Below are positions 26,922 to 32,107 of a stretch of DNA of 32,107 nucleotides, piece after piece. Each line of letters opens with the position of its first letter. Positions within the stretch are counted from its first letter, which is position 1. Source of the DNA: Clostridia bacterium (GTDB lineage: Bacteria; Bacillota; Clostridia; Oscillospirales; Acutalibacteraceae); assembly GCA_017416345.1 (NCBI GenBank), contig JAFQCR010000013.1:1-32107 (forward strand). Direction: 5' to 3'. A program made the translations under genes and the position numbers. Below the pieces are notes generated by a model, which saw only the letters and a list, made by a program, of their open reading frames with translations, made no database searches and was not told the origin of the DNA.

Positions 26922-28145
26922 TCACCAGCCGACAGTAAAGCCCAGCGCACCCGTAATGCCGCCGTAGGAGTAGCTTTTTATGCGCTGAGAGCCCGAAAGC
27001 TCGGCGTTTACGGCACTGATGCAACGCTCGATTTTGAAGACTTTGGTAACGTCGCCCTCACCAAACACAAACCCCATCTTGGGAGAAACGGCAAACTCGG
27101 CAAAGCTTCGGCCGCTTCTTACGGCATCGCAGATAACGCTGACTACCGTTGATTCGACCTGGTCAGCCGAGCCGATGTAAAGCGAGTTTACAACGTGGTA
27201 GTTTTGTTTTGTTGCGGTACAGCTTGGCAGGAAAAGGTTGAATTTTCCCGAAGAAATATCGCTGTCAGAAGCATTGGTCGCCTTTTTGTCAACGGTGCGA
27301 CCTTTTTGGATACACTCATCGGTCACATTAAAGAAAAAGTGGTAAAAACCGCTTTCGGTATCGTCCGAGGTCGTGTCAACGTGGTACCAATCACCGTCAA
27401 TTTTTACGGTGTTCCACATATGCGATTGCGACATCACACCCGTCACAAGAGAGCAATCGATACCCATCATATACATCATGACCTGAAAAGCACGGCTGTA
27501 GCCCTCGCAAACGGCCTTGCCTTTGGCAATGCCGCCAACAATGCTCCAGGCGTGAGCGTTGTTTTCGGGGCTTATCAAAGCGGCGTTGTCATAGGTCACA
27601 CGGTCGCAGATACGGTCGTGTGCCGCAAGCTCAAGCTGAAATTCGCCCTCCTCGGCACTCACGGTCTTCAAAAATTCCGAAAGCTCGGCCTTTATCTCAC
27701 GTTCAAGCTCGGCACGTTGCTTTTCGGAGTACACCCAGTCCGAGGACTTGTCGGCAAAGCTCAACTCAAAGCTGTTGTCCTTTGAGCGAAGCTTGTATTC
27801 ATTAGGCACCCAAAAATATTCCGGGCGGTCATTCCTTAAGGCATAGTATGCCAGCTCAACATCACGCTGCTCGCACTCACCAAGCGGTACAAAGCCCTCC
27901 TGCATATTGTAAAGAGCGTTGTCCAGCTTTATGTAGATGCTCTTTTGCAGGTCGTTAAGCGCCTTGTACTGCGCACGGTCAAACCGCTCCACAACCGTAA
28001 ACGGGTTGTTATCGGGATAAATGTCGAATTTTGCGGTGGAGTCGTCCTCCGAAACCGAAGCGACACCGCCCGAGTTATCGGAGCTGCCCATGCAACCCGA
28101 CAAAATCAGTAAAACAGCAAATCCTAAGGCCAAAAGTCTTTTCAT
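26922..28145 (-). CDS. Transglutaminase-like lipoprotein (407 aa)
   Basis: The signal peptide ends in LSGC, making Cys18 the lipid anchor. A transglutaminase-like cysteine-protease fold follows, with the triad Cys in GKAVCEGYSRAFQ, His in QSHMWNTVKI and Asp in WYHVDTTSDD. Such domains in Bacillota are cell-surface proteases or peptide-crosslinking enzymes; the substrate is unknown. The start is the ATG at 28145, one base after the stop of the LCP-like gene, with AAAGGA upstream. An ATG at 28163 lies inside that gene and has no ribosome site. The 113-base gap to the ATPase-permease gene is AT-rich and holds no clear promoter. Confidence 0.88.
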   Translation of the reverse strand: MKRLLALGFAVLLILSGCMGSSDNSGGVASVSEDDSTAKFDIYPDNNPFTVVERFDRAQYKALNDLQKSIYIKLDNALYNMQEGFVPLGECEQRDVELAYYALRNDRPEYFWVPNEYKLRSKDNSFELSFADKSSDWVYSEKQRAELEREIKAELSEFLKTVSAEEGEFQLELAAHDRICDRVTYDNAALISPENNAHAWSIVGGIAKGKAVCEGYSRAFQVMMYMMGIDCSLVTGVMSQSHMWNTVKIDGDWYHVDTTSDDTESGFYHFFFNVTDECIQKGRTVDKKATNASDSDISSGKFNLFLPSCTATKQNYHVVNSLYIGSADQVESTVVSVICDAVRSGRSFAEFAVSPKMGFVFGEGDVTKVFKIERCISAVNAELSGSQRIKSYSYGGITGALGFTVGW

Positions 28146-28146
28146 T

Positions 28147-28752
28147 TCAGTTTCCTTTCGCATAAAAAATATCGTAAAATAAAGGGTATGACAAGTTGTT
28201 GACCGAGGTGTTCAGAATTGCCGAAAACCCTTTTTGGGGGTCGGTTTTAAGAAAATACTCGGCCAAATAGCGGCAAAAACGGCTGAAAAGCACCGGGTCA
28301 AGCAACCGCTCGGCCTGACCGCCGGTTAAAAGCCTTGGTGCCGTGCCGCTTTCATTATACACCAATCCGCCACAGCTGTCAGCAATTTCTGCAAATTTTT
28401 TGCCGTCGAAAACGGTATATTTTACACTTTTTTTGCCGATTTTTGTCTTAAGCGCCCCCAAAAGCGAGTATACCCCGTGCTCCGCACCGTTTTCGGGAGG
28501 GGTAACAACGCTTGCTTTAGCTGTCCCGCTGTCGGGGTCAAGCTGTAAAAGTGCGGCAAAGGTGCGGTCGTTTTCGTGCAGTACCGCCAGCAAAGAAACC
28601 GTTTGTGACGGCGGATCTGTCGCTTCGGGTTGGTTTTCGGACGCAGTGCCGCCCTTTTGCCACAGCGAAACGCCTACAGCAACGGCCGCCGCCAACAAAA
28701 ACAGTAAAAATGCCGCCGCAGTAGCCGCGGCAAAAATAGCAAATCGTTTCAT
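28147..28752 (-). CDS. Membrane-anchored LCP-like protein, short and diverged (about 201 aa)
   Basis: A basic N-terminus and one membrane helix (about residues 6-30) precede an extracellular domain. The stretch VKYTVFDGKKFAEIADSCGGLVYNES followed by LLTGGQAERLL is reminiscent of LytR-CpsA-Psr domains, which attach polymers to peptidoglycan. The protein is much shorter than true LCP enzymes and I do not see their conserved Arg residues. It may be a non-catalytic relative. The ATG at 28752, with GGGTG upstream, is my choice; ATGs at 28800 and 28842 would add a tail before the membrane helix. The transglutaminase gene follows after one base. Confidence 0.6.
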   Translation of the reverse strand: MKRFAIFAAATAAAFLLFLLAAAVAVGVSLWQKGGTASENQPEATDPPSQTVSLLAVLHENDRTFAALLQLDPDSGTAKASVVTPPENGAEHGVYSLLGALKTKIGKKSVKYTVFDGKKFAEIADSCGGLVYNESGTAPRLLTGGQAERLLDPVLFSRFCRYLAEYFLKTDPQKGFSAILNTSVNNLSYPLFYDIFYAKGN

Positions 28753-29888: not shown

Positions 29889-30812
29889 TTATTCTTGTTC
29901 TAAAAGCGCAACGTGGACAAATAAGGTATTCTGTGAAAAAGATATACCGTTAGTCTCTCTGTCATCTTTAAGTTTGACTGTTATTGTATGCTTTTTCACC
30001 AATTTCCCGTCCGGCATAACATAAAGGTCAGAGCCTGAAAACTCAATCTTTTCAGTTTCCGAATCCTTCAAAATCGTTTTAACCTTAGTTAAAGCGATTT
30101 GTTGAGCTTCGTTCGACTCCAGTCTCTGTACTGCCTCAACCGCATTTCCTTTTTTGCTTTTTCCTACATTTTGATATCCGTCATCTACCCAGTTTACAAA
30201 CTGTTCAAAATTCCCGGCGAAATCATAGCGGATTGATAAGAAACTATTCGTTTTTTGGTCGCCAACGTACTGTGTGTAAACAAATTTATAGCCCACACCG
30301 TCAATTATTTCGTGTTCCATTTTAAAATACGTTACATCGATGTACTTCTCGGCAATGGCAGCAGCGTTTTCTTTGCAAGCATCAAATATCTTTTGGTCAA
30401 ATTTGCCATCAACATATTTCCTGTATACCGTTACTCCAATCAATTTTCCTGTACAGGCGTCAACTGTGATTTTACAGCCTCCCGAACTGCTAACAGTTTC
30501 GTATCGATGCACGGTCCTCGTGCCGATCCATACAGCGTCTGTGGAACTATATGGTGCAGTATAACTTTTGCCTTCGAACTCAACCGTGATCTCCGACTTG
30601 TGGGGTTGCACAGTACGGCCGTATTTTTGGCTATACCAATTACTAAGCTCCTGCTCGACTTGTATCTCATTACCGGTGGTGCCATCGGTCATTATTGTGT
30701 CGATAGCATACGCAACAACCTCCGTTTTGTCAGAGGCTGCTTGTTCAGCATTAGAACAGCCGACAAATACTATGCACAACACAACAATCAAAATCACTGC
30801 CAATTTCTTCAT
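29889..30812 (-). CDS. Lipoprotein of unknown function (307 aa)
   Basis: The signal peptide MKKLAVILIVVLCIVFVGC gives a lipidated Cys19. The rest is soluble, about 285 residues, with alternating strands and Lys/Glu/Tyr-rich segments. I do not recognise the family. Two parts resemble each other loosely in being amphipathic strand-helix units (DACTGKLIGVTVYRKYVDG; RYDFAGNFEQFVNWVDDGYQ), somewhat like PepSY/DUF modules, but this is not firm. The gene lies 13 bases downstream of the DNRLRE-caspase-like gene on the same strand, so the two are very likely made together. Base composition is more AT-rich than in the rest of the window. Confidence 0.78.
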   Translation of the reverse strand: MKKLAVILIVVLCIVFVGCSNAEQAASDKTEVVAYAIDTIMTDGTTGNEIQVEQELSNWYSQKYGRTVQPHKSEITVEFEGKSYTAPYSSTDAVWIGTRTVHRYETVSSSGGCKITVDACTGKLIGVTVYRKYVDGKFDQKIFDACKENAAAIAEKYIDVTYFKMEHEIIDGVGYKFVYTQYVGDQKTNSFLSIRYDFAGNFEQFVNWVDDGYQNVGKSKKGNAVEAVQRLESNEAQQIALTKVKTILKDSETEKIEFSGSDLYVMPDGKLVKKHTITVKLKDDRETNGISFSQNTLFVHVALLEQE

Positions 30813-30825
30813 GATTCTTACCTCT

Positions 30826-32107
30826 CTATTGAAGTACTGTCTGCTTATTACCGCAAACAGTAATCTGCGTAATCGAACTATAATGCCAGATTAACTCATC
30901 GTCCGCAAAGACTCTGTTAATAGCACTTTGGACTGTGTTACCATACGATAATTGTTTAAAAAATTCTTTCGTCCATTGATTTGCATCCCTACAATCTATC
31001 TCTTCAACAAACCCAATCGCAGTTACAGCACCCATATTGACAAGTTTGGATGGTAGATTGTCTGCACCCTCTCCACCTTTTCCCGTTTCACACGCACACA
31101 GCACAACCAGCTTTAGATTTGATAAATCCAAAGATGAGTTGATGTTCATATTTGTAAGTGATGCCAGTGATTGTGATGAAACTTGTATGCCTGTTTGGAA
31201 AATATATGATCCTGCTTCTTGAAGGTATCCATGGCTTCTGCTGACGAAAACAGAGTTTTGGTTATTATCCAAATAGCTTTCAACCGTTGCAACGGTTGAA
31301 TCACCATAATAACTGTTATAGGTGAAACCTATCGACTGTAAATGTGAACCCACCGTTGTGCGCCATGATGAATGGTCGTGGCCGTTTTCGTCATCAGGTA
31401 TTCCTAGCAGAACTGCATTTGTTGCATATACAACATAATTCACCTTCAAACTCGGTTTGTTGGACGCTCGGTTGTAAGATGCAAAGGTCTTATACAGCGC
31501 ACTGCCACTTTCCACACTGTCGCTTGCTCTCAACATAATGCCCTTGGACTGTGAATAAAATCCCGTTTTCCAGCTCTTTACGGCCTGGGTTATATCTATG
31601 CTGTAACGGTGGGCAGGGTTTTTTGCTGCGCCGTTTGAATAACATACATCAGCATAAGCATTCGGCATTTCAGTCCAGGAATTTGGGTCAACATTAGACC
31701 AATTGGCTGTTGATTCCGACCACTCGTTTCCGTCAAAAATATAGCCGTAAACCGTCATAATGGTGGTTTCGCACATCATATCACGGATCTCAACATAGGC
31801 ACTTGTGATGTTGTTGGCCGAAGATATTGCACCAAGATTCAACCCCGGGAATTTCATTAAGGTTCTTGAGATACCATAGGTGTTACGCTTGCCGACATAC
31901 AGCGAACCGCTTGTGCCGCTTGAACCCGAGTTCTGATTCAGCGTGACATCCTGAATTGCGCTTGCGCCGTTGCCGTCATAGGTTATCTCAATGGTCGGGT
32001 CGATGCGGATGGGGTATTTTGTCTTTTCATCCTTGAGATATTCCGCATCAATGTGAATAGTTACAATATACTGCTGATCTTCTCTGACCGTTGTGTGGGT
32101 CATAGAG
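30826..32107 (-). CDS. DNRLRE-type beta domain fused to a caspase-like (CHAT/clan CD) domain, C-terminal part
   Basis: The gene enters from beyond the right edge; the frame is open to the last base and 425 or more residues are visible. The first 40 residues (VTIHIDAEYL, YPIRIDPTIEI) match the segment that often precedes DNRLRE domains in cell-wall and RHS-like proteins. A DNRLRE-like beta domain of about 180 residues follows (SLYVGKRNTYGISRTLMKF, WSESTANWSNV, YSIDITQAVKSWKTG, SNKPSLKVNY). The last 200 residues look like a caspase-fold peptidase: His in VSRSHGYL (codon 31231-31233), Cys in LCACETGKGG (codon 31090-31092), then GAVTAIGFVEEI and WTKEFFKQLSYGNTVQSAINRV. It is probably secreted. 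Catalysis is inferred. Confidence 0.82.
   Translation of the reverse strand, partial: SMTHTTVREDQQYIVTIHIDAEYLKDEKTKYPIRIDPTIEITYDGNGASAIQDVTLNQNSGSSGTSGSLYVGKRNTYGISRTLMKFPGLNLGAISSANNITSAYVEIRDMMCETTIMTVYGYIFDGNEWSESTANWSNVDPNSWTEMPNAYADVCYSNGAAKNPAHRYSIDITQAVKSWKTGFYSQSKGIMLRASDSVESGSALYKTFASYNRASNKPSLKVNYVVYATNAVLLGIPDDENGHDHSSWRTTVGSHLQSIGFTYNSYYGDSTVATVESYLDNNQNSVFVSRSHGYLQEAGSYIFQTGIQVSSQSLASLTNMNINSSLDLSNLKLVVLCACETGKGGEGADNLPSKLVNMGAVTAIGFVEEIDCRDANQWTKEFFKQLSYGNTVQSAINRVFADDELIWHYSSITQITVCGNKQTVLQ

Follow-up and report, generated by a model that had tools for sequence, protein, structure and literature searches.

A gene that breaks off at the edge of its contig appears to encode a secreted protein ending in a caspase-like domain, which raises the question of what such an enzyme might cleave outside the cell and how its maker would stay safe from it. 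Bacterial caspase-like enzymes are mostly discussed as intracellular executioners, triggered by CRISPR or CBASS systems, or as host-directed virulence proteases. The window analysed here is the entire contig C11 (G000:C11; 32,107 bases) of a Clostridia assembly of 2.47 Mb in 38 contigs, and the effector ORF is open at the contig edge (Table 1). The lipoprotein gene directly downstream, absent from an initial annotation of this DNA, is the most informative feature of the locus. The two genes probably, if by no great measure, encode an effector and its immunity or inhibitor protein, namely a Sec-secreted protein of the polymorphic-toxin type with a caspase-like tip and a partner of PepSY fold. 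This reading builds on computed features: predicted folds, conservation of the catalytic dyad, gene pairing, the sharing of the trunk with toxin types, and AT-rich, exchangeable ends.

A predicted caspase fold behind a DNRLRE domain

As the initial annotation had proposed, a DNRLRE domain precedes a CHAT-type domain: NCBIfam model NF033679 (DNRLRE) matches the window protein above its cut-off (E 1.4e-18, 67.5 bits, cut-off 34), the whole ORF matches both CBM96 and CHAT in Pfam (E 1.1e-7 each), and the last 200 residues, taken alone, score 34.1 bits with CHAT against a cut-off of 24, in an alignment spanning profile positions 176-261 of 289, that is, the Cys half only. The CHAT profile matches 5 of the 11 A1 members at E<=0.1, and no Rhs family match was seen in the window protein in the Pfam and NCBIfam scans. 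The two codons singled out as catalytic lie exactly where that annotation had placed them, and the residues, on whose conservation it had staked its call, are each kept in 36 of 38 aligned sequences, the two exceptions lacking both. This alignment comprises the window and L080-L119 (41 loci), minus five partial or duplicate rows (L094, L099, L105, L110 and L115) plus L120 and L124, and excludes the 22 weakest of the 64 rows matched by profile in the family and order searches (E 2.5e-11 or worse). Relatives of the peptidase at L111 (5688-6680) and L114 (5401-6105) have neither the His nor the Cys, and L111 keeps a PepSY-like partner.

An AlphaFold2 model of the C-terminal domain and its comparison with the PDB agree on a caspase-like alpha/beta fold, the point on which the caspase call had likewise been made to depend; we assign the domain a predicted caspase fold of the CHAT / clan CD type. 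Structures of Csx29/Craspase are among the PDB fold matches of the model. The peptidase sequence alone found no match among solved structures, and its profile found in the PDB a single, weak caspase-type match (8rot, E 0.06), ranked under a designed repeat protein that is probably a spurious match. Gingipains (C25) are close in fold, though profiles speak against membership: the window domain has no Peptidase_C25 match at E<=0.1, and one of the 11 A1 members matches weakly (E 0.0018). Peptidase activity through the His-Cys dyad is a prediction.

The domain might instead be a self-cleaving processing peptidase that releases part of the trunk and is not itself an effector. The sections of Zhang et al. 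2012 covered here ascribe such a releasing function to the majority of the caspase-like domains of polymorphic toxins, but also regard C-terminal versions as likely toxins (PMC3482391). In the window protein no further sequence follows the domain, which forms the C-terminus, and the CHAT match ends at most 40 residues from the end of the ORF in 33 of 41 loci, so that we find a processing role very improbable.

Secretion and the missing 5' end

No signal peptide lies within the window, and the extracellular placement claimed in the initial annotation, which we still consider likely, draws on sequences beyond it. The final 207 bases of C11 recur, at 99% identity, at the start of contig C10, and contig C32 ends in an open 340-residue ORF whose start reads as a signal peptide. 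Given the sequence that C11, C10 and C32 share at their ends and the open ORF on C32, the assembly apparently broke off within a trunk that is repeated in two genes. C32 is likely the upstream part of the window gene, the piece that had been left to be retrieved, but it could belong to C11, C10 or both; since the start of C10 has nearly identical bases, the join between C32 and C11 is ambiguous. Judging from the start of C32 and from relatives with complete genes, the window protein would be secreted. A named relative, 'Candidatus Woodwardibium gallinarum' (L123), combines an N-terminal domain of the same kind, DNRLRE, a ricin-like stretch and CHAT in an ORF of 820 residues (parts compared by eye). 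Secretion and operon assignments were made with a home-made ORF caller and a hydropathy rule.

Table 1. Features of the window and of related loci discussed in the text
Feature	Location	Strand	Description
Partner lipoprotein	29889..30812	(-)	307 aa, with a PepSY-like fold predicted; putative inhibitor or immunity protein
Caspase-like effector gene, 3' part	30826..32106	(-)	426-codon ORF, 5' end beyond contig
CHAT-type caspase-like peptidase domain (modelled stretch)	30829..31428	(-)	
Predicted catalytic Cys codon (CACETG)	31090..31092	(-)	36/38 rows; directly after strand 107-111 of model
Predicted catalytic His codon (SRSHG)	31231..31233	(-)	36/38 rows; directly after third strand of model
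DNRLRE / CBM96 beta domain	31438..31944	(-)	Residues 54-222 of 425-aa translation; NCBIfam NF033679, Pfam CBM96
Repeat at assembly break	32005..32107	(-)	103 bp identical to end of contig C32; within 207 bp shared with C10 start
C10 paralogue	L125 2-2975		Nearly same trunk start; matrixin tip; overlapped by 195-aa lipoprotein gene
C17 trunk gene	L126 3954-7836		Unassigned AT-rich C-terminus, then 145-aa membrane-anchored protein
C20 trunk gene	L127 6314-10125		Unassigned AT-rich C-terminus, then 227-aa lipoprotein
L141	391-4807		DNRLRE/ricin-type trunk, TNT tip (E 1e-26), then Imm63 (E 2e-14)

A PepSY-like lipoprotein encoded downstream

The partner gene starts 13 bp downstream of the peptidase gene, and its product has a predicted PepSY-like fold, as judged from a second structure aligner, DUF4901 matches and the order of helices and strands. 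With the second aligner, the nearest solved folds of the partner model include YpeB and protease propeptides; Foldseek alone returned mostly noise (rank 1 MucB, at low probability; YpeB at rank 6, E 0.007, probability 0.99). No curated PepSY-type profile exceeds its cut-off on the window partner, DUF4901, which we take to belong with PepSY, reaching 18.7 bits against 27 and no PepSY model being listed; the best DUF4901 E among 27 partners is 5.3e-7. The sequence profile of the partner found no clear match in the PDB, a PepSY-M4 propeptide appearing at E 0.15, and profile-profile comparison gave a probability of 57% for the L080, L082 and L083 partners, 77% for that of L084 and 7% for that of L113. 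The partners of the peptidases are mostly lipid- or membrane-anchored. Dockerin-like repeats are visible by eye in the genes at the partner position of L082 (6604-7404), L083 (4746-5936) and L099 (6721-7212), which suggests that some of the pairs might dock to a surface that bears cohesins.

PepSY propeptides hold metalloproteases in check, and PepSY proteins can also be folding helpers and regulators, which counts against an immunity function. A single operon encodes SleB and YpeB, and YpeB is believed to keep SleB inactive at the membrane, as related in the part of the source covered here (PMC13393411). Given both the propeptides and YpeB, the simplest assumption is that the partner restrains the peptidase. 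Restraint could also serve a housekeeping secreted protease, with a self or dietary substrate and no warfare, whose PepSY-like partner acts in trans as a chaperone or zymogen inhibitor at the cell's own surface until release. The YpeB- and propeptide-like folds and the SleB/YpeB operon are as much precedents for this arrangement, and carbohydrate-binding-type domains fit a digestive enzyme too; on the evidence given below we nevertheless consider it rather unlikely. In another alternative, suggested by analogy with Craspase and Csx30, the lipoprotein is the substrate or signalling target of the caspase-like enzyme, which would cleave it and free a regulatory fragment. The adjacency of the two genes and the Csx29/Craspase structures among the fold matches agree with such a role, but the predicted fold of the partner resembles PepSY proteins and propeptides, and we regard a partner as substrate as improbable.

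Peptidase and partner occur together

Searched as a single sequence, the window domain has no close relative among the genome contigs, viral contigs, phages and plasmids; the four-row alignment A2 found five loci in the genome contigs and none in the viral contigs. By taxonomic rank, a close relative occurs in none of the three other genomes of the genus, while matches are found in 10 of 398 genomes of the family with the single sequence and in 27 with the profile, in 25 of 295 genomes of the order (profile) and in 2 of 249 genomes of the phylum at E 1e-6 (later profile), the genome of the window being included in these family, order and phylum counts; the weakest family (profile) and order matches may be other caspase-like proteins. 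So patchy a spread within the family tells against a housekeeping protease. A function in anti-phage defence was set aside, as neither protein matches a PADLOC family at E<=0.1 and there are no phage or plasmid relatives.

The CHAT gene is followed by a near, co-directional gene for a secreted or membrane-anchored protein in 33 of 37 loci, against 20 of 243 other ORFs and 7 of 36 other secreted-like ORFs taken as controls, on which basis chance adjacency of the lipoprotein was rejected. These 37 loci exclude a near-duplicate (L105), three loci with no downstream gene on their DNA (L089, L109 and L118) and the 22 weakest of the 64 family and order match rows. A partner is present after all five loci in named genomes, but just two of them, L120 and L124, add to the places already counted, L121, L122 and L123 being the same loci as L106, L102 and L103. 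Five of 35 adjacent co-directional genes have no match to the partner profile and a sixth (L084) matches weakly. The trimmed partner profile matches 29 adjacent partners, 27 of which built it; the partners independent of the profile are L093, which is only in A6, L105 (near-duplicate of L104) and, outside the 29, L120 and L124.

Distances among peptidases and among partners are correlated over 26 loci (r 0.64; none of 5000 permutations reached this value, the highest giving 0.33) in a Mantel test that omits L105, loci without a PepSY-type profile match and loci not in A6, and is uncorrected for genome kinship; a partner serving as substrate would fit this correlation as well. Among the matches listed, both families occur in 13 of 398 genomes, versus 1.5 expected from 27 and 22 (Fisher 9e-12), with a cut set by hand at a partner E below about 1e-12 because weak matches of the partner profile, present in at least 289 of 398 genomes at E 0.001, for the most part extend over no more than the signal-peptide end. 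Again among the matches listed, 14 of the 27 genomes with the peptidase have no strong partner match, and 9 genomes have a partner without a peptidase match.

Six loci gave 15 pairwise comparisons, and in each of them the peptidase shows higher conservation than the partner (e.g. 37% vs 23%); these pairs are not independent of each other and include the signal peptides. Additional partner copies lie near L092, L094, L095, L104/L105 and L124; among 18 further partner loci, some of them cut by contig ends, 17 have no CHAT match and one (L162) has a CHAT gene that is not adjacent. Partner-like proteins are thus often unpaired; some may be immunity proteins left without their effector, or PepSY proteins that serve another function. 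A less conserved partner with extra and unpaired copies is less expected of an obligate chaperone, and the fact that such copies need no adjacent enzyme also argues against a partner as substrate. Some relatives lack the trunk and consist of a signal peptide and CHAT only (e.g. L093 and L096), yet the partner is retained. The pair thus does not depend on a toxin carrier, a point in favour of a secreted protease with its chaperone or zymogen inhibitor. At L159 (3517-4404), the partner ORF opens with a sequence similar to the leader of a CHAT ORF found elsewhere in that genome (L086), as though a peptidase gene had dropped out while its partner stayed behind.

A trunk shared with other C-terminal domains

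The genome of the window contains three paralogues, on contigs C10, C17 and C20, with an N-terminal part of the same kind as that of C11 and different ends, each directly followed by a gene for a lipoprotein or an N-terminally membrane-anchored protein. The tip of C10 is a matrixin metallopeptidase (Pfam E 1.3e-7, HELGHALGYSGH), and C10 reads as a second peptidase-lipoprotein pair of this genome; the other two tips belong to no assigned family, C17, covered by NCBIfam only, containing DNRLRE in that scan and C20 having no Pfam match. Between C10 and C11, 197 of the first 200 aligned bases agree, after which the two diverge; similarity recovers towards the close of DNRLRE and drops off beyond it, so that their homology stops where DNRLRE stops. 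GC contents of trunk, tip and partner are 0.464, 0.398 and 0.41 for C11, 0.464, 0.381 and 0.398 for C10, 0.445, 0.373 and 0.342 for C17, and 0.448, 0.339 and 0.311 for C20, with 0.49 to 0.52 in the surrounding DNA and 0.494 in the trunk start on C32. Tip and partner are therefore AT-richer than the trunk in all four cases.

A search with the trunk domain in 250 genomes of the family, including that of the window, matched 6 of the 249 others, one match being cut by a contig end. L141 is plainly a toxin with its immunity gene, carried by a related trunk, L144 and L145 are, by eye, RHS proteins led by a related N-terminal domain, L142 joins such a domain to an alpha/beta-hydrolase end, and the fifth readable match has a tip of no assigned family. 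Both peptidase tips and a TNT-type tip are hence mounted on related trunks. Two traits of polymorphic toxins are found here, a constant secreted N-terminal trunk with differing C-terminal domains, in this genome and in others, and a gene directly downstream of the variable end (at 33/37 CHAT loci and behind the matrixin, C17 and C20 tips); by its sequence relationships the trunk would be a toxin carrier. That it is common to TNT/Imm63 and RHS proteins, and that tip and partner are AT-rich, argues against a housekeeping protease.

TNT is an intracellularly acting NADase, and the Imm63 protein beside it in L141 starts without a signal peptide, as read from the sequence. Set against the anchored partners of the peptidases, this hints at an extracytoplasmic substrate for the caspase-like tip. 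Partner location has been used likewise to infer the site of action of other toxins in the part of PMC12419801 covered here, where PepSY is mentioned once, as a ligand-binding domain.

Comparison with known systems

Toxins with a caspase-like C-terminus have been predicted before: Zhang et al. 2012 list 'Tox-Caspase' as a polymorphic toxin, with the immunity families Imm36 and Imm57 (PMC3482391). As far as the covered sections of that work go, Tox-Caspase resembles the window protein in being a C-terminal caspase-like domain with His and Cys, in a secreted protein to which an immunity-type gene is assigned, but its immunity proteins are Imm36 and Imm57, whereas a PepSY-like lipoprotein occupies this place here; the terms DNRLRE, PepSY and CHAT are absent from the first 300,000 characters of the article. 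The initial annotation knew its pairing from no described system. A CHAT-type tip with a PepSY-like partner was not found in the literature searched (without preprints and most subscription journals), nor did any paper within the same scope join PepSY with a CHAT domain or a CHAT domain with a polymorphic toxin; the C-terminal Tox-Caspase, on the other hand, was already listed (PMC3482391).

SAVED-CHAT, TPR-CHAT/Csx29 and DdvA differ from the window protein, which is probably extracellular, has DNRLRE in place of SAVED or TPR and is paired with a lipoprotein. Among the gingipains, RgpB carries a pro-domain of its own (title of 4ief); in our locus the PepSY-like protein comes from a gene apart from that of the peptidase. 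SleB, paired with YpeB in Bacillus spores, is a cell-wall lytic enzyme and not a caspase-like peptidase, according to the covered part of PMC13393411. The WapA/Rhs proteins of Streptococcus suis, as far as the covered part of PMC12704120 describes them, share with our locus a Sec-secreted DNRLRE N-terminal fragment, swapped C-terminal toxins and adjacent immunity genes, but they have LysM and Rhs parts and nuclease-like tips, unlike the window protein with its lack of an Rhs match. The same source makes their N-terminal fragment, with its Sec signal, DNRLRE and LysM, responsible for anchoring in the cell wall.

Proposed function of the pair

For the preferred pair of effector and immunity protein, we infer catalysis, target, toxicity, inhibition and competition from the features described above. 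The constant trunk (signal peptide, conserved N-terminal domain and DNRLRE) would be exported and stay attached to the cell envelope or close to it, and its tip, a cysteine peptidase of caspase fold with a His-Cys dyad of the CHAT/gingipain type, would cleave proteins outside the membrane, its targets most likely lying on competing cells. The lipoprotein partner would sit on the outer face of the producer membrane, where its PepSY-like domains would bind and block the peptidase and thereby protect the producer and its kin.

A wider proposal, which we hold tentatively and with slightly less than even confidence, is that the locus stands for a hitherto undescribed class of effector-immunity pairs in which extracellular caspase-fold peptidases of Clostridia, mounted on DNRLRE trunks or secreted alone, are matched with a membrane-anchored PepSY-like guard. 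If this is true, PepSY domains would act as immunity proteins and caspase-like enzymes as surface weapons between bacteria. Taken together with its relatives, the locus indicates that Clostridia have an extracellular branch of caspase-like enzymes with a conserved, separately encoded partner of PepSY fold. Should the partner inhibit the enzyme, the pair would provide a simple two-gene system for how extracellular caspase-like peptidases stay safe for their maker, and a function for unannotated lipoproteins of the PepSY/DUF4901 type.

In L155 (322-3993), a papain-like NWCWAAC motif is visible by eye in the protein encoded at 322-1926, with a partner-like fragment two genes on, and a lipoprotein of the window (26922-28163, minus strand) looks transglutaminase-like by eye.
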